DNA of 57,837 nucleotides from a virus: IMG/VR virus record IMGVR_UViG_3300022745_000038, positions 1 to 57,837 of that record; one strand, 5' to 3'. A model generated the notes under the pieces. The model saw only the letters and a program-made list of their open reading frames with translations. It had not been told where the DNA came from and did not search any database. Each line of letters starts with the position of its first letter. Position 1 is the first letter of the stretch. The translations under genes and the position numbers were made by a program. Positions 3,482 through 57,084 of this stretch are shown here, piece by piece.

Positions 3482-3691
3482 GTGGAGTTGATCTTCATCT
3501 CCGTCGTGCTTGCCATGGCCATCATGAAGTCTCTGGAGATGATCGGACCACGATGGCGGGCGGCCCTTGGTGGCGCCGCCCTCGCGTTCATTCTGGCCGC
3601 CGGCATTCTGCGCGCTACTGACGCATCGCCGCGCGTTGCAATTCCACAGTCCGGGCAATCTGGGCCCGTTGCTGAGACAGCCGGTCGATGA
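3482..3691 (+). CDS. Possible small two-helix membrane protein
   Basis: 69 residues from GTG 3482 on the plus strand, filling the 144-bp gap between two minus-strand genes and overlapping the 3' end of the giant gene by 77 nt. Two hydrophobic segments are visible (LVELIFISVVLAMAIM and ALGGAALAFILAAGIL). It could be a holin-like or accessory membrane protein, but it may also be a shadow. The evidence is the hydropathy pattern and the otherwise empty gap. Confidence 0.35.
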   Translation: MELIFISVVLAMAIMKSLEMIGPRWRAALGGAALAFILAAGILRATDASPRVAIPQSGQSGPVAETAGR

Positions 3692-6600
3692 CCTCGCGCT
3701 TCTCGCTCGGATCCATGGCTCGGTACTGAGCGAGGCGCAGTGCCTTGTTGATCTCGCCGATCTTCTTCTCCGCCTGCGTGTAGGCCTTGTTGAGAACGAT
3801 CTTGTCCTCATTCTCGGCCGCGAGACGGGTGGCCTTCTCCAGTTCTCCCAGTTCGCGCGCCTGCTTGATGTCGGCCATCACTTCGTGGACTGCTTTCGCC
3901 TGCTTGTAGAAGTCCTCGACATAGCGTGAACGGTTGGACGGGACTTCCTTCACGAAGTCACCGATCACAAACGTCTCATCCCACCGGCGCGTGGCGTGCG
4001 TTCTCCCGCGGAGGGGATCCGCCGCCATGGTGTCCACCCCCATCGCGATGTGCGAGCCAAGCCACCCGAAGTAGGCTCGGATCAAGTGGTCAACCTGCAC
4101 GGGAGAGATCCCGGTCGTGTCGCCAGCAGCGCCCAGCGTCTCGGCGATCCACGAGGTGTTGTAACTCTTTCGCTCGCTCTTCGAGAACCGTTCCATGCCC
4201 TTGGTTTCGATCTGCCGCCCGGTGAACGAGTCCTTGTTGGCGTACAGGTCGAGCGCCGGCTTGAACAGTTGCGGCACCGGGTTCATGGCGAAGGTGTCCT
4301 TGACCATGGACGCCATACGCTCACCCAACCGCTTCCCGGTCATCTCGTCGGAGATGACAAACTCCCAGGAGCGCTCCGCGATCGTACCAAGGGCACCAAT
4401 CTCGAATGGCTTGGGAATCCGGAACGCAGTGTCGCCGATCTTGAACCACCAATAGGCGTCCCGGTCCCAGTCCTCCCGGGCCTTCCAGTCGTCGTCGTCT
4501 GCGTAGGCGAGCAGTAGTCCGATCGACGCCAGCGCCACTGCGGCGGACACCGCGAACAGCCGGGTCGGGTCTTCCTTGCCGGCTCGCCCGAGTTTGTAGA
4601 GGCCCTGCGCGCGAGCGTTCAGGAACGGGACCACCTGAGACAGGAAACGCATGGCCACGAACGATCCCTGGAGTTGGAAGTCCAGGAAGTCGCGCGCCTG
4701 GTAGGCAGCCTCGAGCGGGGGCACACCGCGGGCGATCAGTTGCTTGTAGAGGGCCGCCCGGTTGATGTTCTCCATCCGGTCGCCGAAGTCCTGGTACGAG
4801 TCCCAGACCTTGCCGAAGGCGGCTTTGATCTTCTCCGGGGTGCTCAGGATGGTGTTCGCATCCACGCCCTGCTCGATCAGCCGCTTGGCGTGCTCGGCGT
4901 GGTCATCGTTGAACTGGCCGAAGCGCATCATTGCTCCGCCAAACAGCATCTGGGCGTACTCGGTCGAGTCCTTGCGCGTGCCCTGCCAGCCCTCCACCAG
5001 GTTCTTCGCCACGTTGTAGGACATGTCGTTCTGGCCGATCGCCGCCAGCGAATCCCGGATCAGGTTGCGGATCTTGAACGATGGGGAGATGGTCGTGCCG
5101 ATAGTCAGGGTGCGTTTGGCCTTGGACATCCAGTCCATCGCCCAGCCGCGCAGCGGGCCAGCCTCGAGGGCGGTGATGGCATCCAGCACGAACGGATCGC
5201 CCACCACCATCCAGTGCTCCTTGCCCTGGTCCATGAAGTAGGTCGCGCTTCCCTTGCCAGACGTGCGTTTGGCGATCTGGCGAGCCGTGTCGGCGTCAGC
5301 GGTGATCGCCACGCCCTGCCGCTCCGCCTCGGTCAGCGAAGCCGCAGCGGCTTGATTCGCCATGCTGGCGGAGATCAGGTGTGACCAGTTGCGCAGCGTG
5401 TTTTCCATCAGGTCGCCAAGGTTCTCCTCGCCACCCTTCAGTTTCTGGAACGCGCGCTGCCGCACCAAACCCTTGACCATCCCCGGGCCGCTGATCTCGT
5501 TGCCCTCCATCTCGCGATAGAAGGGGACGTAGAACTCCGATTCCCAGACGGCTCGACCGACCGGGTCGATCAGGCCGGTCTTTTCGGCGATGTCGAGCAC
5601 CGACTTGTTGTAGTCCTGCAACGTCTGTAGCGCCCGCGCGTAGGCCTGCGCACGCGAGGATCCGTCCGGCATGTTGCCCCGGTTCGCGCCTTGCAACGCC
5701 GCGATCTCGGCCGGCGTGAACAGGTGCTCCCTGCCCTCGATCATCAGTTTGGCCGACCGATTGCCGGCGACCCACGCGAGGAACCGGTCGTGCTCGCCAT
5801 TGAGCGCCTGCATGGCGCCCAGGAAGCCCTTGCCGTCGAGATCCCCGTAGATGTGTCCATCGGCATGCATCACCGGCTTGCCGTGCAGCAGGAGGCCTTC
5901 CAGAACCCCGTCCGCGCTTTTCGACATCCGCGCCAGGACGTAGGCCTTGTGGCTGAGTTTCTCCAGCGGGCGGAACTGGTCGAACACGCCCTGCACAAGG
6001 CGCGTCTTCCAGTTGTCCATCATCCCTGACACCTTCTCGCGCAGGGTCTTCTTCGGGGCGTAGGTGTCGATCTTGCCGGTGGCCGATTCAAGGGCGGCAT
6101 TGCCCTTGGCCCAGTCCGGCGTGCGCGAGACGGAGGCCATCACTTCCGGTCGTTGGCGTTCCGGTTGAGGTTGGCCGCGAACTCTCTCGCCACCTTCAGG
6201 GACCACGCCCTGTGGTTCCTGGCGATTCGAGGAGGCTGAGGTGCCGCGGTAGACGGCTTCGGAGATTCGACCTTGGGCGTATTCACTTTCGAGTGCCTCG
6301 CGCAATGATTGTCCGACGTTTTCATCAACGGCCGGGACGGAGGATCTGGCCACCACTGCTGCCTTCCCCTTGCCCCTGCCGTTGTCCACAACCACAATTG
6401 TCACGCGATCGTTGCCGCGATACCTATCGGCCAATTGGTCTACGACCTTTCTGGCTCCGACGTGGGTCTTCGCGTGCTCGTTCATCGGCACGGTCCGCCC
6501 CATACGCATTGCGCGCGGCAAAGCGCCATGCACCAGGGCCTCGACCGGGTCCCGGTACGTGTAGAGGATCGTCACGTCACGGCCGGACTTCAGGGCTGCC

Positions 6601-9600
6601 TCTATCTTGGACACGCTGCTTGGCAGCGCGTTCATGTTCGTGTCGTAGATAATCTCCGCCCGGTCGGCCGCGCCGGCCAATATCCTCAGGCCAGTCGACT
6701 TTCCGGCCCCGGTTCCTCCGGCGGTGAAAAGAACGACAGGGTCGCGGTTGGCTGGCGTGGGGGCCGCCAACATGTCGGCATAGCGCCGCTTGACGAAAGC
6801 AGAAGCTGGTTCATGAACCGCGGCCGACAGCGTGCGGTCCTCGCGGTACTCCGGGGACAACTCGCGGGCCAGGTCGGTATTGAGCACCCGACCGCCCATC
6901 GCATCGGGCAGTGCGTTGTACTCAGCAACGGCCGCTTCGTAGTCAGAGTCGATCTTCGCCTGCAGGCGATCTTCGATCTGCCTGTTGGTCAATTTCGGAG
7001 CGACGGAAGCGACCGCCTCATCGCCAGCGGCCCGCTCGCTGACATCGACGCCACCAAGCATTTCCGCGATCTTGGATCGTTCCTTGGGCGTCGACTTCCT
7101 GGACATCGGGAACGACGCGCCATCTTCAGACCTGGTGACCGCTCCCACCGGATCAGAAAGGAACATCCGCACCGCGGCCAGCGCTTTCTGCGTGTCCGAT
7201 ACCGGAACGGCAACATTCAGGACGAAGCGTCCCCTGCCAGTAGCGGCGCTCCCTTGGTCCGAAGGGCCGCCCGCATTTCCGCTCTTGACTCCGCGTCCAG
7301 CGGCTCCTGCAAACCCGACATTTCCAGCCAGTTCGCTTCGGTAACTGGAAGACGGAGCCTTTCCAGTTCGGCCACTATCGGATCCCTCCCAGCTTGGGGG
7401 GTCAATACGCCCAGCGCGCTGGACGATTTCGTTCCGCGCTTCATCAGTGGTCACCTCGCCAGCGTCGACTCGACGCCAGATGTTGTCGATCGCCTGAACA
7501 TTCGACTTCTTGGCCTTGAACGTGGGTTTGAACAGCCCGCGCACGGCCTCCCAGGTAATAGACTGCATTTCCCGAGGAAAGATCCCTCGAACAGCCGCTG
7601 CCCTACGGTATGCCTCGGCATAGATCCCATAGGTCCCTTGCGCACCGGTTATCGAGGAACTCGCAACTCCACCGCTGCCGAAGTTGTGGGTCACCTCCGC
7701 AGAACTCCCGGACATGCCACGGAGCAGTCCAGCGGCGACGGCATGGGTGTCGATCGTCACCGAACCACCTTCGTCGTTCGGCTCAGTGATGTTGTTGAAG
7801 AACGACCTGACCTTGTGCTGATCTCCCAAAAGGGCGCTGATGTTTTCGCGGCTGCCATCCGTCAATGCGGAGATGGCCTTGCCGATCTCTGAAAACGACC
7901 CCCACGCAAGTTTGCTGTTGCTCCCCTTCCCCGTCTTCATCCACCCTATGAATGCCCCAGTCGGAGCGCTCATCCGGTAACTGCGCGGGTTGTGGGCCTG
8001 GTCGTACACCCGAATCCAGGCGGCTTTCTGCACCAACGTCTTCAACTGCGAAAGACGTTTCCCGGCCACCTGGCCGCGCAGACTCTTGGGCAGGATCTTT
8101 CCGGCGATCATGTCCATTGCCGGATCCCAACGATGCTGCTGCTGGTCGTGCCAAACGTCGAGCACCCGCTCGGCGGCCGTCACGTTCATGTACCAGTCCT
8201 TCTGCGGGGACATCGCAGCGATCACTGCGGCGGACTGGTCTCTAGTCACCCCGTACTTCGCAGCCCATGCGTCAGCCAATTTGCGAGCGCCGTCGTACCA
8301 CTGCTTGGAATTCGCCCGGGTAGCCGCCGGCACCTGATCGTGCAACCAGAGAAGGTTGTCCGTGATGCGCTGTACGATCTGCTCGGCGCGCTCGTCCGGG
8401 GTCCCGGCGATCCCGCCCATGCCCGGATACTCGGACATGATGTCGATATTCTTGGCGAACGCCGCCTCTCCGGACCGGCGCATTGCGTCCAGGTCGATCT
8501 GCAGGCTTTCGGCCAGAGGGTCTTCCGTGGCCTTCTTCGCGGTCGGCCGTCTTGCGCTGACGGTTGAGGCGACAGCCACCACATCGCCATCAGCGCCGCC
8601 CGCATATCGGTCTGACAAAATCTTTGTGTCCTCGGCGGAGAACACAACGTAGTTGCTCTCTTTGGGCTGAAGCGCATCAGCGTACTGGATTCCAAGCACG
8701 CCACGCGCCAACAGTTCCATGCTTGCGTCTCTTGCAGACCCTAGTTTCTGCGCCATCCCCCTGTATGCCGCTCCACCAGTCCCAGACTCTGGCAACCCAA
8801 AGCCAGACCAGGCTGCCTTGACAACGTCAGGCTGATCATTGAATCCCCTATCCCACCTAAGCATGTTCGTAGTTTCAGGAATATCTGCCGTGTACAAACC
8901 TCCGGCGTACTCCACCTTCATTTTCTTGAGGAGGGCGATTGCCGAATCAATTTCGGCATCACTGGCATCGTCCATCCATCCAGAATCTCTCTCCTTTGGA
9001 TCGCGCATCGCATCAAAGGTGTCACGAGCATCGACCAGCCCGTTGTCTACGGCATATCGCAAAGCCTCCCCGGGGACCTTGCCGAATTTCTCGACCGCCG
9101 TCTCGTAAAGTTCCTCAATTGGGACCAAGCCAAGCTTTGTTACCTCTTCCGACAGTTGCCTTCTATGCCATTCCGCGATTTCCGGCTTGCTCGTGAAATA
9201 CAAACCCCACCCATAGTCGTTATCGCCACTCCCTTCCCCAATTTTGGCAGTGTCGAATTTGGATATCCCTCGACGGCCGGAACCGTGGTAGGCAATCATG
9301 GCGGCCACCGACCCGTCGGCACCATGGAAATTATCGACGGCCGATTCGTTCGAGATTTCCCGAAGGAACGTCCGCACCTCGGCGTCGGTCGCGCCGTTGC
9401 TCTTGAACCATCCGCGCAACCAGTCCATGAACCGGCCAAGCATCGTGCGCGGCGTGCGCAGCGCGGTGGCGTTCACCCCGTACCGGTCTGCCAACCCTGA
9501 GAAGTCGCCCGTGGTGTCGGCGGCGATCAACTCCATCAAGGCCTCTTCCATCGACAGCCGACCGACCGCGATGCCACGGTCAGCCGCCACCGCCTCGGAA

Positions 9601-12600
9601 AGTGCCTGCACAGTCGCATTCGCGCGAAGCCCCTGCGCCCGGCGCATTGCCTCGCCACCGGTCGCCCGGTTCAATGCGTCGAACCCTCGGTGCCCGCCCT
9701 CGTGAGCCGCCACCCAGAGCGCACGCGCCCGGGATGGGATGGCCTCAGCAACAATGTAGACCCGGCCCGTGCCCTTGACGTAGGCGCCCTCAAGCACGTC
9801 TCCGCGCTGCAGCTTGAGCGCATCGCGAACATCGTCAGGCAGGTCAGCGGCCGTGGCCACCACTTCGACGTTCTTGCGTGGGCCGATCCATGCTCGGACT
9901 TGGGCGACCGTGGGGTTCTCGCTCCGCCGCGAGTCCGCCACAGTGGCGGACTGCTCCGACTCCGGCTGCGCCGCGGCGGGGGGCACCGCGCGATCGGTGG
10001 CGGCGCGCTGGGGGGCTCGGGGAGTCGTCCGCTCGCCGCCGGCCCACTTGGTCACCCGCTGGGTCGTATCGCCGTTGTCGAACCAGTCCTGCAGTTGCTC
10101 CGGCGTCATGCCGACCACACCACCGTGGCGGGCCGCGCCCTTCTCGTACTGCGCGCGGTACAGGCGCAGCGCCTCCTCGGCGTTCTGGGCCCCAGCCACG
10201 ATCTTGTGCTCGTCGAATCGACCGCCCTCAGTGTTCTGGTCGATGACGAAGAACTTCCCGCGCCACGACAGGGGCGTCCCCGCCTTGACGAAGATGTCGA
10301 TGTGGTCGCCGTCCTTGCCGCGCGGCACCCCGGTGATGTAGCCGTAGTGGACTCCGCGCATCTTCACGCGCCAGCGCTTGCCGTTCGGGTCGACTCCTGT
10401 GCGTTCCGATTCGTTCGGGTTCTCCACCGAGATGTTGAACCCAGCAAGGGAAAACTTTCCCTTTTTATAGTTGCCAGCCCGCGTCATTGGCTCGGTAGGC
10501 TGGGGCAGGTCGTTCTTCTTCGAGGTGGCCGCCTCGTGCGCAGCGCGATCGACCCGCGCGCCGCGCGCCGGCACGATGTCCTCCGGCATCTCGTTCGGCG
10601 CCGAAGGAATGCGCTCATCCTGCGACAGGGTGGCACGGGCGTCGGCCGCACGCTTCAGACGTTCCACCTCGAGCGAGGTGGCCTTGTTGGCAGCAATCCC
10701 TTCCCGGCGCAGTTCGGCCTCGAACCGGCGCACCGGATCAGCCACCCCCTCTTCAGACATCACGCGGGACAGGATCTGGTCGCGGCGGGCCGCAGCCTCA
10801 TGCCGGCGCGCTCCTTCCACGCGGGCGTCCACGTCTGCCGTGGTCGCAGTTCTGGCGGATTCGGCGGCAGTACGCGCAGCCGCCTCAGCCTCGGCCATGG
10901 CTACGCGATCGGAAGGCTCCGCGAGCGCTTGGGCCTTTGTCGCGTCCGATCGCTCTGCGGCCCTCTGGGCGGCTCCTGCGGCGTCTTCCGCGGCGGCCTC
11001 CTGGAGGGGGCGCTGGTCCTCGACCCGGTTGGCGCGGTTCGGAAGTTCGCCACCGTAGGTCGACACCTCCCCTTCGACCGTGCGCCCGGTCGGCCGCTCG
11101 CCCGTCTCGGCAGGAAGTCCGCCACTGTGGCGGACTGGCGCGACCGCCGTGCCCGGCCCAGCAGGGGCCTCCGGGGTGTTCTGCCCCATCACGAAGTCCG
11201 GCCGCTCGTTCCATGCCGTCAGCAGACGCTCGACCCCGTCAATCGCCTGCGTGCGCGTCACCTCGTCCAGGCGCGGGTTGCGCGCGATGGCAAGAGCCTG
11301 CATCAGTTCGTTGGTCGACTGCGGTCCGAACCGCTCGTCCTCGCGCATGCCGCGCAGGATGTCCCGATCGATCGCCGCATCGGCGAACTTCACCCGACCC
11401 TCGAGCGTGTCGTAGAACGGGGCCTCCGCCCCGCTCACCGCGTTGCTGGCAGCCTGGATGGCATCATCCACAGTGCCTGCGTTGGCTATGTCCGCCAACA
11501 CCTTGCGGGTCTTGTCCTCTTCGATCGCGCCCGCGCGCCTCGCAGGGGTCAGGACTGCGCCGGGCCCGGCAATGATGCCCTCTCGCGCCGAGTTGAGAAG
11601 GACGTCTTCGAACAGCCCCTGCTCCGGGCGAACCTTCTGCACGCCGACATTGGTGGCGAACTGCTCTGCACCACCCTGCAGGCCCTCGGATCCGACAGCC
11701 ACCACCGTGCGCGCGCCACGGCCGGCGATCCCAGTGACGCCGGCCGCCGAACCTTCCAGACCGAAGCGCCCGGTGATTGCGCCCATGCCGGCAGCCAATC
11801 CGATCGACGCCCACTCCTCAGCCGTGCGCGGCAGTCTCTGCCCCAGCGCCTTCTTGGCATCCGCCTCTGACATCGTCTGGCGCATCTCCTGGTACACAGG
11901 AGAGTTCGCCTGCAGGTCAGAGTCCTTCAGTTCCTGGATCTTGTCGTAGATGTTGCCGCGCACCTCGCCTGCGGCCATCCCGGCCCCAACGCCCTCGAGC
12001 ACGTGCCGCGCAGCGGCCTCGCCAACGCCGGCCCCCTTGAGAGCCAGCCCAAGGGCCTTGAACGGTCCAAAGTTGCCAGCGAAGTCAGCGACCAATGACA
12101 GCGGGTCCACCGTGGCAACATGCTTGGCCCAGATGGCGACCTTGTCCACCTCGCCGTCCGCACGCTCGAGTTGGTTCTGCAGGCGACGGTTCTGGACCTT
12201 CTGCCATTCCGACTGCTTCTCCTGCCCGCTCTTGATGAACTCCTCGAGGGCGTTGGAGATGAAGTTCCCCGGAGAAACCAGATCGGGGATGGTCTTGACC
12301 AGACCTACCGCAGCATTCGCGGTGTTGATGACCGTATCGTTGACCGCAGCCAGCGTCGATCGCTTCGGAGCGCCACCCTTCGCCTTGGGCGACAACGGGC
12401 TCGCGTCGATGTCGAACTCTTCCTCCGAAGGAGCAGTCTGCTGACCGCGCGCTTCTGGGAGTTCTGCGCCGGAAACCATGTCGAAGGCCTGCGCCAACTT
12501 CTGGCCGTACTTCGGGTCCTCAGCGTAGCCGCCCTGAACCATGCCCTGCACGAAACGGCTGATGTCGCCACCAGCCCCGACCGCCCCTCGATACCGCGGG

Positions 12601-12926
12601 TTGCTGCCGATCAGGTTGGCGTAGTCCTCGGCAAAGGCCTCCGGGGTGTCATAGGCCCGGTACTTGTCCACCGTGCCCAGCATGTTGTCGCGAGCCGGAG
12701 CAGAAGGGCCACCCCATCCTGTTGCCTTGATGTTCCCCAGGTTGTTGGTGCCCGGGATGACCGACCTCCCCCAACCAGTCTCAAGCCCCCACTGGGCGAG
12801 AATGGCCCGCGGGTCGACGCCCAACTTCGCGCCGGCCTCGGCTGCCGCTTGGCCATACGTGTCAACGAAGTCGGCTACGCCGCCGCCGGTCCGGGGGGCA
12901 AGTTCCAGCCCAAGGGTGTCGGCCAT
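3615..12926 (-). CDS. Giant polyvalent internal virion protein
   Basis: About 3,103 residues from ATG 12926 (TGATG overlap with the preceding stop). Domains in order: glucosaminidase/FlgJ-type murein hydrolase (about 18-155: LAQWGLETGWG, NNLGNIKA); hydrophobic region (about 200-450); coiled low-complexity region; pyrophosphatase-like polyvalent-associated domain (about 820-965: DGDHIDIFV); metallopeptidase-like HEGGH near 1075; ADP-ribosyltransferase-like domain from about 1213 (YHGS, GWGLYFT); a DUF7178-like segment near 1725 (KVRSFFNNI, VTIDTHAV); Zeta-toxin-like P-loop kinase near 2075 (GGTGAGKST); and a helical C-terminal polyvalent domain (about 2270-3000). Such proteins are ejected with the DNA: the N-terminal hydrolase opens the wall and the cargo domains act in the host. 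It contains two dispersed palindromes in linkers. Confidence 0.9.
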   Translation of the reverse strand: MADTLGLELAPRTGGGVADFVDTYGQAAAEAGAKLGVDPRAILAQWGLETGWGRSVIPGTNNLGNIKATGWGGPSAPARDNMLGTVDKYRAYDTPEAFAEDYANLIGSNPRYRGAVGAGGDISRFVQGMVQGGYAEDPKYGQKLAQAFDMVSGAELPEARGQQTAPSEEEFDIDASPLSPKAKGGAPKRSTLAAVNDTVINTANAAVGLVKTIPDLVSPGNFISNALEEFIKSGQEKQSEWQKVQNRRLQNQLERADGEVDKVAIWAKHVATVDPLSLVADFAGNFGPFKALGLALKGAGVGEAAARHVLEGVGAGMAAGEVRGNIYDKIQELKDSDLQANSPVYQEMRQTMSEADAKKALGQRLPRTAEEWASIGLAAGMGAITGRFGLEGSAAGVTGIAGRGARTVVAVGSEGLQGGAEQFATNVGVQKVRPEQGLFEDVLLNSAREGIIAGPGAVLTPARRAGAIEEDKTRKVLADIANAGTVDDAIQAASNAVSGAEAPFYDTLEGRVKFADAAIDRDILRGMREDERFGPQSTNELMQALAIARNPRLDEVTRTQAIDGVERLLTAWNERPDFVMGQNTPEAPAGPGTAVAPVRHSGGLPAETGERPTGRTVEGEVSTYGGELPNRANRVEDQRPLQEAAAEDAAGAAQRAAERSDATKAQALAEPSDRVAMAEAEAAARTAAESARTATTADVDARVEGARRHEAAARRDQILSRVMSEEGVADPVRRFEAELRREGIAANKATSLEVERLKRAADARATLSQDERIPSAPNEMPEDIVPARGARVDRAAHEAATSKKNDLPQPTEPMTRAGNYKKGKFSLAGFNISVENPNESERTGVDPNGKRWRVKMRGVHYGYITGVPRGKDGDHIDIFVKAGTPLSWRGKFFVIDQNTEGGRFDEHKIVAGAQNAEEALRLYRAQYEKGAARHGGVVGMTPEQLQDWFDNGDTTQRVTKWAGGERTTPRAPQRAATDRAVPPAAAQPESEQSATVADSRRSENPTVAQVRAWIGPRKNVEVVATAADLPDDVRDALKLQRGDVLEGAYVKGTGRVYIVAEAIPSRARALWVAAHEGGHRGFDALNRATGGEAMRRAQGLRANATVQALSEAVAADRGIAVGRLSMEEALMELIAADTTGDFSGLADRYGVNATALRTPRTMLGRFMDWLRGWFKSNGATDAEVRTFLREISNESAVDNFHGADGSVAAMIAYHGSGRRGISKFDTAKIGEGSGDNDYGWGLYFTSKPEIAEWHRRQLSEEVTKLGLVPIEELYETAVEKFGKVPGEALRYAVDNGLVDARDTFDAMRDPKERDSGWMDDASDAEIDSAIALLKKMKVEYAGGLYTADIPETTNMLRWDRGFNDQPDVVKAAWSGFGLPESGTGGAAYRGMAQKLGSARDASMELLARGVLGIQYADALQPKESNYVVFSAEDTKILSDRYAGGADGDVVAVASTVSARRPTAKKATEDPLAESLQIDLDAMRRSGEAAFAKNIDIMSEYPGMGGIAGTPDERAEQIVQRITDNLLWLHDQVPAATRANSKQWYDGARKLADAWAAKYGVTRDQSAAVIAAMSPQKDWYMNVTAAERVLDVWHDQQQHRWDPAMDMIAGKILPKSLRGQVAGKRLSQLKTLVQKAAWIRVYDQAHNPRSYRMSAPTGAFIGWMKTGKGSNSKLAWGSFSEIGKAISALTDGSRENISALLGDQHKVRSFFNNITEPNDEGGSVTIDTHAVAAGLLRGMSGSSAEVTHNFGSGGVASSSITGAQGTYGIYAEAYRRAAAVRGIFPREMQSITWEAVRGLFKPTFKAKKSNVQAIDNIWRRVDAGEVTTDEARNEIVQRAGRIDPPSWEGSDSGRTGKAPSSSYRSELAGNVGFAGAAGRGVKSGNAGGPSDQGSAATGRGRFVLNVAVPVSDTQKALAAVRMFLSDPVGAVTRSEDGASFPMSRKSTPKERSKIAEMLGGVDVSERAAGDEAVASVAPKLTNRQIEDRLQAKIDSDYEAAVAEYNALPDAMGGRVLNTDLARELSPEYREDRTLSAAVHEPASAFVKRRYADMLAAPTPANRDPVVLFTAGGTGAGKSTGLRILAGAADRAEIIYDTNMNALPSSVSKIEAALKSGRDVTILYTYRDPVEALVHGALPRAMRMGRTVPMNEHAKTHVGARKVVDQLADRYRGNDRVTIVVVDNGRGKGKAAVVARSSVPAVDENVGQSLREALESEYAQGRISEAVYRGTSASSNRQEPQGVVPEGGERVRGQPQPERQRPEVMASVSRTPDWAKGNAALESATGKIDTYAPKKTLREKVSGMMDNWKTRLVQGVFDQFRPLEKLSHKAYVLARMSKSADGVLEGLLLHGKPVMHADGHIYGDLDGKGFLGAMQALNGEHDRFLAWVAGNRSAKLMIEGREHLFTPAEIAALQGANRGNMPDGSSRAQAYARALQTLQDYNKSVLDIAEKTGLIDPVGRAVWESEFYVPFYREMEGNEISGPGMVKGLVRQRAFQKLKGGEENLGDLMENTLRNWSHLISASMANQAAAASLTEAERQGVAITADADTARQIAKRTSGKGSATYFMDQGKEHWMVVGDPFVLDAITALEAGPLRGWAMDWMSKAKRTLTIGTTISPSFKIRNLIRDSLAAIGQNDMSYNVAKNLVEGWQGTRKDSTEYAQMLFGGAMMRFGQFNDDHAEHAKRLIEQGVDANTILSTPEKIKAAFGKVWDSYQDFGDRMENINRAALYKQLIARGVPPLEAAYQARDFLDFQLQGSFVAMRFLSQVVPFLNARAQGLYKLGRAGKEDPTRLFAVSAAVALASIGLLLAYADDDDWKAREDWDRDAYWWFKIGDTAFRIPKPFEIGALGTIAERSWEFVISDEMTGKRLGERMASMVKDTFAMNPVPQLFKPALDLYANKDSFTGRQIETKGMERFSKSERKSYNTSWIAETLGAAGDTTGISPVQVDHLIRAYFGWLGSHIAMGVDTMAADPLRGRTHATRRWDETFVIGDFVKEVPSNRSRYVEDFYKQAKAVHEVMADIKQARELGELEKATRLAAENEDKIVLNKAYTQAEKKIGEINKALRLAQYRAMDPSEKREVIDRLSQQRAQIARTVELQRAAMRQ
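9934..9950. repeat. Dispersed palindrome, copy 2
   Basis: Exact TCCGCCACAGTGGCGGA on the plus strand, extended to a 21-bp palindrome by flanking AG/CT. Within the giant virion gene it encodes QSATVADS in a linker between two domains. Confidence 0.95.
11118..11134. repeat. Dispersed palindrome, copy 3
   Basis: Exact TCCGCCACTGTGGCGGA, extended by AG/CT to 21 bp. In the giant virion gene it is read in a different frame and encodes PVRHSGGL in low-complexity sequence. Confidence 0.95.
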
Positions 12927-14005
12927 CAAGTGTTCCCGTTGATCATGCCGCGAATTCGCCGGTTCTGTAGCCCATCGGCAGGTCCTCTATTCACGTCCCC
13001 CGTCCAAGGAACAAACGGCACATCGGTCGGATATTCATCTGACCTAGCCGCTTTCGGCTCATCGGGCGGGGAAGCCGCCGGTTGCGCCTGCTGCTGACCG
13101 CTGCGCCGAAGCCCATGCTGACGCATCCACTGGTCGAACTGGCGGTTGGACCGATTCAGGTACTCCTCGGAGCGCGCTTTGATGTACTCTTCCTTCGACA
13201 TGGATCTGTCACCAACATCGACCGAAGCGCTGCCACCCCAGCCCTTGCCGGGGTGCTCCATGTAATCCTTCTTCGCCGCGGCCTCGGCTTCCTTCTTGCT
13301 CGGCAACGGCGCACCCAGAGAGGCAGTCACCGCCTCCTCAGGGTTCATGCCGCCACGGACCAGCAGCCCGGCGATCTCCTTCCGGCCGGGCAAGGTGTCG
13401 GCGTCAATCTTCGGGCGTCCGAGATCATCCACTTCGGTCTTGAACGCCTTGTCGATGCCGGCCAACGCCGTGTTGACGTTGCGTTGCACCTGGGCATCGT
13501 TGGGCTTGGGTTGCTGGGATCCCCAGCGGGTGCCACGTTCGATCGCCCCAGTCTCTGCTTTGGTGCGTTCGGTCTGGGCGTCGATCAATCCCTCGTTTTT
13601 CTTGTAGACGCCAGCGTGCGCCCGGTACAGGTCAGCCTGCTCGGGCGTCAGCGGCGTTGGAGTTTTCTCCGGCCCATAGGTCGGCTCTGCTCCGGGCTCG
13701 CCCGTGTAGCGCGCCTGGTCAGGGGCCAGCGTGTAGGGCTTGGAACGCTCACGCTCGAGCAAGATCGGCGAGAGACGTTGCTGATGCTCGACATCGCGCG
13801 GCACAGCAGCGTCGGCCTCTTTCATCCGGAGCCCGGACTGCAGTTCAGCCAGCCGCGCCGACCGCGCCTCTTCCAGCGCCGACCGCTCGCGCGCAAGATC
13901 CAGTTCCGCACCCTTGCGGATCTCGGTGCGCGCCATCTCCCCGCCGACTTCGGCAAGGGCACCACCAGCACCGGCCGCAGCCTGCGAGAAGTTGAACGCC
14001 ATCAT
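12926..14005 (-). CDS. Putative internal virion/ejection protein
   Basis: 359 residues, starting MMAFNFSQAAAGAGGALAEV at an ATGA overlap with the upstream gene. After a Gly/Ala-rich N-terminus, residues 25-75 are a charged helical region (likely coiled coil), followed by a Pro/Thr-rich stretch and a polar C-terminus. There are no catalytic motifs. Its place directly before the giant polyvalent gene and after other Ala/Gln-rich proteins matches the internal (ejection) protein block of podoviruses. The role is inferred from context. Confidence 0.7.
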   Translation of the reverse strand: MMAFNFSQAAAGAGGALAEVGGEMARTEIRKGAELDLARERSALEEARSARLAELQSGLRMKEADAAVPRDVEHQQRLSPILLERERSKPYTLAPDQARYTGEPGAEPTYGPEKTPTPLTPEQADLYRAHAGVYKKNEGLIDAQTERTKAETGAIERGTRWGSQQPKPNDAQVQRNVNTALAGIDKAFKTEVDDLGRPKIDADTLPGRKEIAGLLVRGGMNPEEAVTASLGAPLPSKKEAEAAAKKDYMEHPGKGWGGSASVDVGDRSMSKEEYIKARSEEYLNRSNRQFDQWMRQHGLRRSGQQQAQPAASPPDEPKAARSDEYPTDVPFVPWTGDVNRGPADGLQNRRIRGMINGNT

Positions 14006-53920: not shown

Positions 53921-54739
53921 CTACACCGACTGCATCAGATTGACAAGTGCTCTCACCCCCATTCTGCGGTGCATGTCGTTCGCATCCTCGCCCTCAAGCG
54001 GGGACATCACCCACGGCCGGCCGATTTTCTCTGCCGCTTCCTGCCCGCGCCGGCTCTCGTCATGATCGGCGAAGACCTTGGCGTCGCTGAAGTATGGCGC
54101 TACGTGCTCCATGTTGCCGGCAGAGAAGCAGACGATGACCTGCGTCGGCAGCATCATCGACTCTGCGGCCGCGCGAATCGACAGGCCCGTGGCGTAGCCT
54201 TCGCACAACCACTTCGATCGCACCGCCTTGCGGGGGCCCATGACGTGAACAGCGCCCTTGGCACGACCGCCCGGGAGGAACTTCTTGCCCCCGTCCTTGG
54301 CGATCCGCTGGACGTTGATCAGGTCGTCTGTCCGATGGTCCCGCATCGGGACGAGAAGAACATCGTCAAGGACGAACCCTGTAGCCTTCTGGAGGCCCTT
54401 GGCGACGAGATAGGCGTGCCCGGCCAGTTCGGCCTCTCCCATCATCCTGCGCGCCTCAGCGGCCGCCTGAGCGTGCTGGCGGGCCATTTTCTCGGCCTTC
54501 GCCCGCCGCTCCGCCACTGTGGCGGACCAGTCTGCCGGCGCGGCATCCTGGCCCTTCCACATCACGGGGGAATCCATGGTCGCCCAGTTCTGCGCCCAGC
54601 CAATGTTTCGTTCGAGCTTGTAGGCCCCGTTCCGGCGGTGCGCGTGATCTGCGGTCGGGACCCGGTGCCACGCGCCGTCTGCAATGAGTCGATCGATGAT
54701 CAGGCCATGCGCGAGCGCGAACGATCGGAAGTCGCTCAT
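53921..54739 (-). CDS. Toprim-domain DNA primase
   Basis: 272 residues. The C-terminal Toprim domain has the catalytic Glu in KWLCEGYATGLSIRAAAE and the DxD pair in VFADHDESRRGQEAAEK, then PLEGEDANDMHRR. The N-terminal half (FALAHGLIIDRLIADGAWHR) resembles the small primase-accessory region of plasmid and phage Toprim proteins and lacks an obvious zinc finger. It overlaps the helicase gene by 4 nt; together they form the replication initiation pair. One dispersed palindrome (SATVAERR) lies in the linker helix. Confidence 0.85.
   Translation of the reverse strand: MSDFRSFALAHGLIIDRLIADGAWHRVPTADHAHRRNGAYKLERNIGWAQNWATMDSPVMWKGQDAAPADWSATVAERRAKAEKMARQHAQAAAEARRMMGEAELAGHAYLVAKGLQKATGFVLDDVLLVPMRDHRTDDLINVQRIAKDGGKKFLPGGRAKGAVHVMGPRKAVRSKWLCEGYATGLSIRAAAESMMLPTQVIVCFSAGNMEHVAPYFSDAKVFADHDESRRGQEAAEKIGRPWVMSPLEGEDANDMHRRMGVRALVNLMQSV
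54510..54526. repeat. Dispersed palindrome, copy 16
   Basis: Exact TCCGCCACTGTGGCGGA in the primase gene, encoding DWSATVAERR at the start of a linker helix upstream of the Toprim domain. Confidence 0.95.
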
Positions 54740-57084
54740 GCCGCCCTCCGCGCTTTGCCGCGCGCCCAGCGGATTACGGCGGACTTGATATACGAGTAGA
54801 TGGCCGGATCAGGATGCGCTGCCGCGTGCGCCATCGAGTAGTCGCGAGGTGGCCAGTCGCCATAGATCGAGTGGTACTGCGCCTTTGCGAACCGCTCGGC
54901 CGATGACACGTCACCACGCTTCCAGTCGAGAGCCACCGCAGCGATCTCCTTCCAGGCGTAGAACTTGTTCTCCTGCCATGCGTGTTTGTTCTTCCGCTGG
55001 CCGATGTCCAGTTCGACCATGGTGCCGGCGACGTTCTCCACCATCGACAGCCGGGCCGGGCGCTCCCATCCGCAGGACGGGCACACTTTCGCCCCGCCAA
55101 GAGCATAGTGGCACGACGGGCAGGCGAACATCTCCCGCTCTTCCTCGGTCGGCTCCTTGCGCTCCTTGGCGTCGAGAGACTCCCCGGACAACTCCTGCAC
55201 GCCATGGGCGAACAGATCGATGGTGTCGTCGAAGAACCGGGCGAAATTGCCTGAGTGATCAAGCCACAGGGCGTACTCCTTGCCTTCGTGGGGCCGCATC
55301 ACCCGGCCCAACTGCTGGATGTGCGACGAGAACGACTTCCGGTAGGGGTGCGCGTCCACCCCACAGAGAATGTGCGTGGCATCGAACCCCTTGCCCAGCG
55401 CCACGCAGGAAATGAGCCCGACGATGTCACTGCCCGGGGCCTTGAAGTCCGCGATCAGTTGCGCGTTCTCTTCGTCCTTGTTGCGGTAGGACACCACCTG
55501 AAAGTTGTGGCCGGCAGCCTGAAACTGCCGCGCCAGTTCGATGCAATGATCCACCGTCGCGCCGAATACGATCGACGGAACCGGCCCGCCGAAGTGTTCC
55601 TGCGTCTTCGCAACCCACTCGGCAACCACGTCACCGACAATGGCCATTCCGCGCTCGGTCAGGGCCGCCTCGGTCCACTCACCGGTCGATGACACCTTGG
55701 CGCCGCGCATGTCGGCGGCAACCGCCAGATAGGGTCGGATCGGGGCGAGGTGTCCTTCCTCCACCAGTTGATCTGTCGTGGTGCAACTCACCACTTTGCT
55801 GAACAGGTCGCCGAGTCCCTTGGTGAAAGGCGTGGCGGTCAGGCCGACCACGAACACGTCAGGGTGCTCGCGCATGAATTCCGCAGTCGCCTTGAACGTG
55901 GTGTGGCAGTTGTGGACTAGCCTCCCATCAGCGAAGTAAGAAGGGTGCCCGGAGACGTGCAGGTTGTAGACAACCGCATCGCTTCCGCATTCTTCACGCG
56001 AAACACTGACCACCCTCTGGAACCAAGAAAGGCCGTCTTCCTCGCGTCCGCCTCCCGAACCTTCGTCGAATAGTGACTCCCCCCGTCTACCTCGATCGCC
56101 ACCATCATTGATGGACTCGCCAAGTCGATCTTGTAGTGCGACGGAAGCCCGCCCGCCCTCCTCTGCCCGGTCGGGACAATGAATTCTGCGCTCCAACCTT
56201 CCCCAAGAATCTGCAACAGCCGTTGCTGAGGAACGGAGAGAGGACTCCCATTCCCACCATGCACCTTTGGCTTGTGCCCAATCTTCCTCAACGTCGTCGA
56301 CATCTTCTGACGAACTTCTTGAGAGTGCATTGGGTTTTTCAATTTCTTGGCACAACTTTTGGAGCAGGTCACGCGCGCGACCCACACCACTCTTGATTCC
56401 GCCTGAACTGTTCCCCTGTGGTTTGGCCTGAACTGCGGCCTGTAAAGCACGCCACATTGCGGGCAAATCTTCGACTCTCGCAACGCGGTGACCTGCCAAC
56501 TCTCTCGCGGCGACCCATCCTCCATCCGTGAAGAACGGGTGCGAACCTGTGCAAACTGTTTCATGTCCATCCTCGAATGCGACGCGAACCATATCCCGTC
56601 GGCCTATGGGGGCGGCTACCGTTCCGCGAACAATCCCGCGTCCAACAGCGGTAAGAACGGCGTCTCCTGGCCTCACAGATTCTATAGCAACACCCCCGTC
56701 CGGGGTCATCACCTTCGTTCCAGCGACAAAGCACTCGTCCACAACCAGAAGATCAACCTGCTCCGGCCACCCGCGCCGGGCAACGGTCTGCGGGCTCGCC
56801 ACCTGGATGTACTCGTACCCGCGAGCGCGCCAGTGGTTGCCCTGGATCACCCCGTGTGGGATTCCGTACCGGTCGAGCGTTGCGCTGGTCTGGTCGATCA
56901 GGGAGATGCGATCGGCCATGAAGACGCCACGCCTCTTCCGTGACCAGCAGTTGTGCAGGAAGTGCGAGGCAACGACCGTTTTCCCTGCCCCGGTGGGCAG
57001 GTACAGCAGTTGATGCTTATCCGTGGGCGCGTTTGCCCGAAGCGTCGCTACGGCCTCTTCCTGATACGGTCTGAGTTCGACCAT
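54736..57084 (-). CDS. DEAD/DECH-type helicase, interrupted by an intein
   Basis: 782-residue precursor; excision of a 275-residue intein gives a 507-residue SF2 helicase. Motifs: N-terminal RPYQEEAVATLRAN, Walker A PTGAGKTVVAS (about 30-40), VASPQTVARRG, the split motif II VVDE/CH, then GLTATPFTKGLG (motif III), DHCIELARQFQAAGHNFQVV (motif IV), DIVGLISCVALGKGFD (motif V) and QQLGRVMRP (motif VI). A CxxC...CxxC zinc ribbon follows (ACPSCHYAL, VCPSCGWE). It unwinds DNA with the Toprim primase. Confidence 0.92.
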   Translation of the reverse strand: MVELRPYQEEAVATLRANAPTDKHQLLYLPTGAGKTVVASHFLHNCWSRKRRGVFMADRISLIDQTSATLDRYGIPHGVIQGNHWRARGYEYIQVASPQTVARRGWPEQVDLLVVDECFVAGTKVMTPDGGVAIESVRPGDAVLTAVGRGIVRGTVAAPIGRRDMVRVAFEDGHETVCTGSHPFFTDGGWVAARELAGHRVARVEDLPAMWRALQAAVQAKPQGNSSGGIKSGVGRARDLLQKLCQEIEKPNALSRSSSEDVDDVEEDWAQAKGAWWEWESSLRSSATAVADSWGRLERRIHCPDRAEEGGRASVALQDRLGESINDGGDRGRRGESLFDEGSGGGREEDGLSWFQRVVSVSREECGSDAVVYNLHVSGHPSYFADGRLVHNCHTTFKATAEFMREHPDVFVVGLTATPFTKGLGDLFSKVVSCTTTDQLVEEGHLAPIRPYLAVAADMRGAKVSSTGEWTEAALTERGMAIVGDVVAEWVAKTQEHFGGPVPSIVFGATVDHCIELARQFQAAGHNFQVVSYRNKDEENAQLIADFKAPGSDIVGLISCVALGKGFDATHILCGVDAHPYRKSFSSHIQQLGRVMRPHEGKEYALWLDHSGNFARFFDDTIDLFAHGVQELSGESLDAKERKEPTEEEREMFACPSCHYALGGAKVCPSCGWERPARLSMVENVAGTMVELDIGQRKNKHAWQENKFYAWKEIAAVALDWKRGDVSSAERFAKAQYHSIYGDWPPRDYSMAHAAAHPDPAIYSYIKSAVIRWARGKARRAA
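55909..56733 (-). other. Intein in the helicase DECH box
   Basis: 275 codons. Block A is CFVAGTKVMTPDGG (Cys1); block B is ETVCTGSHPFF with the TxxH pair; blocks F and G are VYNLHVSGHPSYFADG and RLVHN, followed by Cys+1 of the restored DECH box. Residues about 105-245 are acidic, low-complexity sequence without a LAGLIDADG or HNH domain in this frame. A separate endonuclease gene is overprinted on this stretch. Confidence 0.9.
55917..56564 (-). CDS. Vsr/PD-(D/E)xK-type homing endonuclease overprinted on the helicase intein
   Basis: 215 residues on the same strand as the helicase but in another frame, covering intein residues about 57-273, including splicing blocks B and F/G. ATG 56564 is preferred (GAGG 6 nt upstream). 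An N-terminal zinc-finger-like set (C34, C37, C67, C71: KICPQCGVLY, RVTCSKSCAKK) is followed by a C-terminal Vsr/DUF559-like core: HYKIDLAS, VAIEVDGGSHYST, ARKTAFLGSRGWSVFRV. Vsr-like enzymes are known intein/intron-associated homing endonucleases. It is likely the mobility enzyme of this intein. Confidence 0.85.
   Translation of the reverse strand: MKQFAQVRTRSSRMEDGSPRESWQVTALRESKICPQCGVLYRPQFRPNHRGTVQAESRVVWVARVTCSKSCAKKLKNPMHSQEVRQKMSTTLRKIGHKPKVHGGNGSPLSVPQQRLLQILGEGWSAEFIVPTGQRRAGGLPSHYKIDLASPSMMVAIEVDGGSHYSTKVREADARKTAFLGSRGWSVFRVKNAEAMRLSTTCTSPGTLLTSLMGG

Follow-up and report, generated by a model that had tools for sequence, protein, structure and literature searches.

Canonical inteins that carry a homing endonuclease (HEN), of the PI-SceI type, hold an in-frame LAGLIDADG or HNH nuclease between splicing blocks B and F. 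The phage element described here resembles them in its Hint splicing domain, in the placement of the HEN between blocks B and F, and in its apparent homing into conserved nucleotide-binding motifs. It departs from them in that the HEN is Vsr-like, is encoded in another frame, is absent from the spliced-out protein, and runs over the splicing blocks. A second relevant arrangement is that of the fractured genes, which Dassa et al. reportedly described in 2009 together with split inteins and an I-Bth0305I-like HEN. The element shares with fractured genes the class of its HEN and its location in phage replication genes. However, in a fractured gene the host gene is broken and the HEN lies between the two halves of a split intein, whereas here gene and intein are unbroken and the whole of the HEN is overlapped.

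A third arrangement consists of out-of-frame HNH genes within stop-free insertions of phage methylases, which are not inteins (Arsenault, Gosselin, Gogarten 2025; PMC11855218). Like the element described here, the ShiLan domain and the Pacc40 insertion of that report combine an out-of-frame gene for a homing-type endonuclease with a stop-free, in-frame insertion in a phage gene. They differ in that the nuclease is HNH, no intein blocks are detectable, the insertion may stay in the protein, and no ribosome binding site was found; our family overlaps a complete intein, encodes a DUF559 rather than an HNH nuclease, and is enriched in Shine-Dalgarno (SD) elements. For overlapping reading frames, PMC11855218 refers to a preprint that deals with non-canonical intein architecture in actinophages. 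Judging by its title and by that citation, this 2025 preprint may report overlapping HEN ORFs in actinophage inteins and may overlap in part with the present finding. Among the papers that our literature search covered, none was found to describe an overprinted nuclease in an intein. The paper on the Corynebacterium phages phi673 and phi674 mentions an intein, and the passages of it that were found mention no nested nuclease.

Layout of the intein and the nested gene

The window analyzed here comprises positions 1 to 57,837 of the IMG/VR virus record IMGVR_UViG_3300022745_000038 and also encodes a terminase, a portal, and a giant polyvalent protein. The latter (3,104 aa, window 3615-12929, minus strand) contains endolysin-like and DarB-like antirestriction segments. 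The locus of interest is a helicase ORF that, taken whole, matches the DNA helicase family phrog_16 (1.4e-64); RadD-like helicase models also match. Its features are as follows:

57084..54736, minus strand, helicase ORF of 782 aa near the right end of the window
56734..57084, minus strand, N-extein of the helicase, Walker A to Walker B (...VVDE), ResIII 2.5e-15
55909..56733, minus strand, intein of 275 aa (C1...H274-N275), inserted at DE/CH
54736..55908, minus strand, C-extein of the helicase (C+1 HTTFK...), Helicase_C, RadD-like
55917..56570, minus strand, nested HEN ORF, 217 codons and TAG, in the +1 frame of the intein
56571..56574, minus strand, SD-like GAGG, 6 nt before the ATG at 56564 and within intein residues F-E-D-G
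56539..56550, minus strand, intein block B (T62-x-x-H65), overlapped by the HEN N-terminus
56352..56465, minus strand, predicted zinc-binding module of the HEN (C34-x2-C37 ... C67-x3-C71), placed by Cys conservation
56035..56331, minus strand, intein middle (residues 135-233), a stop-free spacer that is predicted to be disordered and is near-neutral in the intein frame
55989..56126, minus strand, predicted Vsr-like/DUF559 nuclease core of the HEN (D147, E158, D160, H164, D173, N192)
55909..55974, minus strand, intein blocks F/G (VVYNLHVSGHPSYFADGRLVHN), overlapped by the HEN C-terminus
55917..55919, minus strand, HEN stop TAG, spanning the Leu-Val codons of LVHN (cTA-Gtc) and leaving 8 nt to the intein end

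As the first-pass annotation had recognized, the DECH box of the helicase is split by a complete intein of 275 codons (56733-55909, DE/C...HN/CH), and the interrupted Walker B motif reads VVDE/CFVAGTK...GRLVHN/CHTTFK. The nested HEN ORF lies wholly within the intein DNA and spans intein residues ~55/57-273. The extent first given for the nuclease gene, residues ~57-273 including block B and the last splicing blocks, agrees with these coordinates. The 8-nt gap from the HEN stop to the intein end is also found in the majority of 85 loci.

The window intein matches Hint_2 (8.7e-7), Intein_splicing (4.6e-6), and the NCBI models TIGR01445 and TIGR01443 for the N- and C-terminal parts of inteins. 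Among 74 inteins of the family, C1, the penultimate His, and the last Asn are each present in all, the TxxH of block B in 73, and the residue that follows the intein is Cys in 71 and Ser in 3; insertion is at a DE/C or DE/S boundary in 72. The AlphaFold (AF2) model of the window intein has well-defined ends (pLDDT >93), and residues 135-198 and 202-233 fall below 50. In Foldseek, this model matches the gp41-1 intein best (7.4e-7); DnaB inteins (MchDnaB-1, 3.5e-6) come next, along with other Hint structures. Judged by its sequence and model, the element would belong to the class 1 inteins, as C1 with block A, TxxH, His-Asn followed by Cys or Ser, and a predicted Hint fold all occur together. 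The acidic, low-complexity composition of the intein middle had been described as a property of the intein itself; the composition is there, but it is a by-product of the HEN gene read in another frame, and constraint on it is near neutral.

The window HEN matches DUF559 (1.4e-8) and has two Cys pairs in its N-terminal part. Profile matches include the DUF559 protein 3hrl (6.5e-7) and 3r3p (0.01), and the AlphaFold model (pLDDT 88) has as its top PDB match in Foldseek the catalytic domain of I-Bth0305I (3r3p; E 4.2e-3, probability 1.00). It should be noted that the alignments used for structure prediction left out three HEN and two intein rows from phage database records. As a fold match this is moderate, with E 4e-3 in Foldseek and 0.01 for the 3r3p profile, and the main support comes from DUF559 and the invariant predicted catalytic residues: D147, H164, D173, and N192 are present in 120 of 120 aligned HENs and E158 in 117, and the zinc-module cysteines are kept in 112-117 of the 120. 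The nested ORF is thus predicted to encode a zinc-binding, Vsr-like (DUF559/I-Bth0305I-type) homing endonuclease with a PD-(D/E)xK fold and, presumably, nuclease activity. Structure prediction of both frames, proposed by the first-pass annotation, returned an I-Bth0305I-like nuclease and intein ends with a Hint fold. We take the best PDB matches of the two frames, I-Bth0305I and gp41-1, to be both linked to the fractured-gene system. As a separate observation, the nucleases of L032, L040, and L164 have an apparently duplicated N-terminal Cys-rich module, and their inteins are correspondingly longer.

Stop avoidance and constraint among relatives

A nuclease gene of this kind, with a Cys-rich N-terminus and in full same-strand overlap with the intein, had been proposed from the window sequence; it is real and conserved in relatives. 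In a tblastn search against phages, the nuclease turned up in phages of Vibrio, Pseudomonas, and Corynebacterium, where the matching stretch is annotated as a helicase or as an unnamed host gene. The same nesting is present in 18 of 18 relatives, eight from cultivated phages and ten from IMG/VR. Among the phage matches listed, the nuclease match lies under a host-gene annotation, and the nuclease has no annotated gene in the eight cultivated-phage records examined, which exposes an annotation blind spot. Within the actinophages of the phage collection, only phi673 (two records) carries this intein/HEN family.

Against genome contigs, the window HEN as a single query gave no match, and a profile of near relatives gave seven. 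A nuclease-seeded scan yielded 80 loci, in all of which the intein frame is open across the match, with 2 to 22 stops in the third frame. An intein-seeded scan yielded 65 loci, nearly all with a +1 nuclease, and two scans with distant nuclease clades added 92 further distinct nucleases, of which 83 are overprinted. Counted by distinct nucleases, the overprinted loci number 201 (86 + 32 + 83) and derive from independent metagenomes, MAGs, and cultivated phages; four more loci, in which the frame is open and one intein end was not seen, stand outside this number. In every overprinted locus the HEN is exactly +1 of the helicase frame, and the in-frame HEN of canonical inteins was found in none, as the HEN is always +1 to the splicing domain. 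A sequencing or assembly artefact, by which compensating frameshift errors displaced the HEN of an in-frame intein, has nothing in its favor but the unusual layout; with 201 distinct, independent loci in the same frame relation, its probability is negligible and we regard it as refuted by that number.

Stop codons were counted against an expectation obtained by shuffling synonymous codons with the amino-acid sequence and codon counts of each nuclease held fixed. For 86 distinct relatives, which fall into 75 clusters, this gave an expectation of ~725 stops in the intein frame along the HEN ORF, and 0 are observed; in the third frame the observed count is 1,233 and the expected one 1,168. The further 32 and 83 distinct loci likewise have 0 intein-frame stops over the HEN. 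L167 and L165 serve as controls, since neither HEN sits in a continuous intein; their stops in the equivalent frame number 19 and 23, respectively, close to the expected 26 and 28. Because about 200 distinct relatives share the double coding, the nested layout is an old, maintained design rather than an accident. These counts also bear on whether the middle of the helicase frame is translated as one chain at all, or whether the loci are really split (fractured) genes with an accidentally open middle. Fractured relatives do exist (L165, L175, L177, L178, and L179), but they contain 15-27 stops in the stretch that is kept stop-free in the overprinted loci, which indicates that an untranslated middle fills with stops. 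Set against 0 of ~725 in 86 loci, this makes such a split very improbable.

The first-pass annotation had also suggested comparing synonymous and nonsynonymous change in the two frames, and the comparison, made on fourteen pairs of relatives with each substitution class expressed per opportunity in both frames, distinguishes the middle of the intein from its ends. In the middle, the rate of HEN-synonymous, intein-changing substitutions is 0.232, compared with 0.066 for HEN-changing, intein-synonymous substitutions and 0.080 for those that change both. The HEN frame alone is constrained there, and the intein frame is a near-neutral spacer. At the ends, the rate of substitutions silent in both frames is 0.625 in block B and 0.388 in blocks F/G, with all other classes far lower, and both proteins are constrained. 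The AlphaFold models agree with this pattern: the nuclease and the intein ends are well modelled and the intein middle is of low confidence. Since the middle is constrained in the nuclease only, our inference is that the nuclease gene occupied that stretch first and that the intein spacer was overprinted on it; only at the two ends would the HEN ORF run over older, constrained splicing blocks. The initial description of a HEN overprinted on an intein thus holds at both ends and is reversed in the middle. A chance ORF was rejected on account of the stop avoidance, the frame-specific constraint, and the residue conservation across relatives.

As a case of gene overlap, the family is large and clean: it comprises ~200 distinct sequences, each of the two frames encodes a known protein family, and non-overlapping relatives serve as a control.

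Synthesis of the nuclease and mobility of the element

In 74 of 74 loci, a stop codon within the intein blocks the HEN frame ahead of the first ATG, at a median distance of 4 codons. An SD-like element precedes the first HEN ATG in 41 of 75 loci, compared with 12.8% of control ATGs, taken out of frame within the same host genes (P 7e-18); the other 34 lack a clear SD before the first ATG, which makes the true start uncertain in those loci. In the window, the start is probably the second ATG, at 56564, giving a protein of 215 aa, and provided that this ATG is used, the start fits internal initiation. A different route would be a programmed frameshift, in which a +1 shift in the helicase transcript yields an intein-N::HEN fusion that needs no start codon of its own. 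The invariable +1 relation of the HEN to the helicase frame is what this route would predict. However, with the upstream stop so close to the ATG in 74 of 74 loci, the stretch left for a shift is very short, and SD elements are strongly enriched ahead of that ATG. The upstream in-frame stop and the SD enrichment favor internal initiation, and frameshifting is improbable.

The element is mobile on several lines of evidence. Inteins that are 93-98% identical occur within helicases that are 56-70% identical on both sides of them (L007/L009 and L070/L072), and intein-less helicases are common. Corynebacterium phages phi673 (intein-positive) and phi674 (intein-negative) differ by a precise insertion of 906 nt (302 codons) with flanks ~99% identical. 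The codon after the insertion site encodes Cys in phi673 and Val in phi674, so that the +1 residue apparently arrives with the element. Across the family, HEN and extein distances are correlated globally with a Spearman coefficient of 0.16-0.29, which at this divergence is weak and carries no information, and close pairs were used instead. Host genes beyond the DExH helicases include SNF2 proteins and clamp-loader ATPases (Pfam), which suggests that the element has moved between the Walker B motifs of different genes.

Several hosts have further peculiarities. The SNF2 host of L151 (767-4681) has a second intein-like insertion with an in-frame HNH_3 domain, and the hosts of L076 (1766-5134) and L164 (272-4105) have one in the Walker A region that looks LAGLIDADG-like by eye. 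The hosts of L091 and L170 look terminase-like, with no Pfam domain beyond the intein.

Three mini-inteins of 143-152 aa (L149:2501-2941, L161:2501-2929, and L154:1599-2054) have intact splicing ends and a +1 HEN that is deleted or decayed, with a nuclease relic still present over block F. The first-pass annotation had named homologues with a decayed +1 gene and an intact intein as evidence against its reading. Such homologues do occur in these three loci, but they are the expected HEN-loss stage of the homing cycle and not evidence against dual coding, and the reading stands. The same three loci, as instances of HEN loss, would be in keeping with a HEN that is dead weight throughout the family, a decaying relic held open by constraint on the intein frame. 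This is highly unlikely, given that constraint in the middle acts on the HEN frame, that the predicted catalytic and zinc residues persist across 120 divergent HENs with few exceptions, and that near-identical inteins in diverged helicases point to recent homing-like transfers.

Our preferred reading, to which we assign a probability of roughly 0.87, is that the phage helicase carries a mobile intein and that the HEN of this intein is a separate product, translated from an overlapping +1 gene. One ribosome would translate the helicase frame without a break into a long precursor, from which the 275-aa intein would be spliced out by class 1 chemistry (C1, TxxH, H-N, C+1), restoring the Walker B motif. 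A second ribosome would start at the SD-preceded ATG within the intein coding sequence and produce a free, 215-aa, zinc-binding, Vsr-like endonuclease. This enzyme may cut intein-less Walker B sites in co-infecting phages, in DExH helicases and, for relatives, in SNF2 and clamp-loader ATPase genes, and repair would then insert a copy of the element along with the C+1 codon it requires. The only role of the intein middle would be to provide the other gene with a stop-free spacer. Since nuclease and splicing protein would be separate, the splicing protein need not carry a nuclease domain. This would amount to a stable second way to build a mobile intein, in which a nuclease and its self-splicing cover are two proteins of one stretch of DNA.

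Fractured and free-standing relatives

In the five fractured relatives, including L165 (2789-5080), a helicase-like host gene and its intein are in two ORFs that still share one frame, and the nuclease overlaps both, where the first ends and the second begins. In four of them (L165, L175, L177, and L178), the ATG that starts the C-half lies 118 nt before the end of the HEN ORF. The layout of a fractured gene with a split intein was found only in these five; in the window, the intein frame is open throughout. The five form one clade (SH-aLRT 100) placed among overprinted members of an unrooted tree in which the deeper joining branches are weak. On this unrooted tree, a change from overprinted to fractured is the simpler direction.

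We give even odds to the proposal that fractured genes and natural split inteins evolved from continuous mobile inteins by way of overprinted ones. Once a HEN in the +1 frame had its own start, the intein middle would be merely a stop-free spacer. Were the C-half then to gain its own start codon, stops could accumulate in the middle. The outcome would be a split intein with the HEN between its halves, reached with no rearrangement. Natural split inteins are tools in wide use, and the proposal provides a testable account of how they could arise.

Free-standing relatives of the nuclease proved rare when sought, being represented by L167 and, doubtfully, L324. The gene at L167:3285-3896, from a Spirochaetaceae MAG, is a free-standing nuclease gene with no intein and lies directly upstream of an intein-less helicase.
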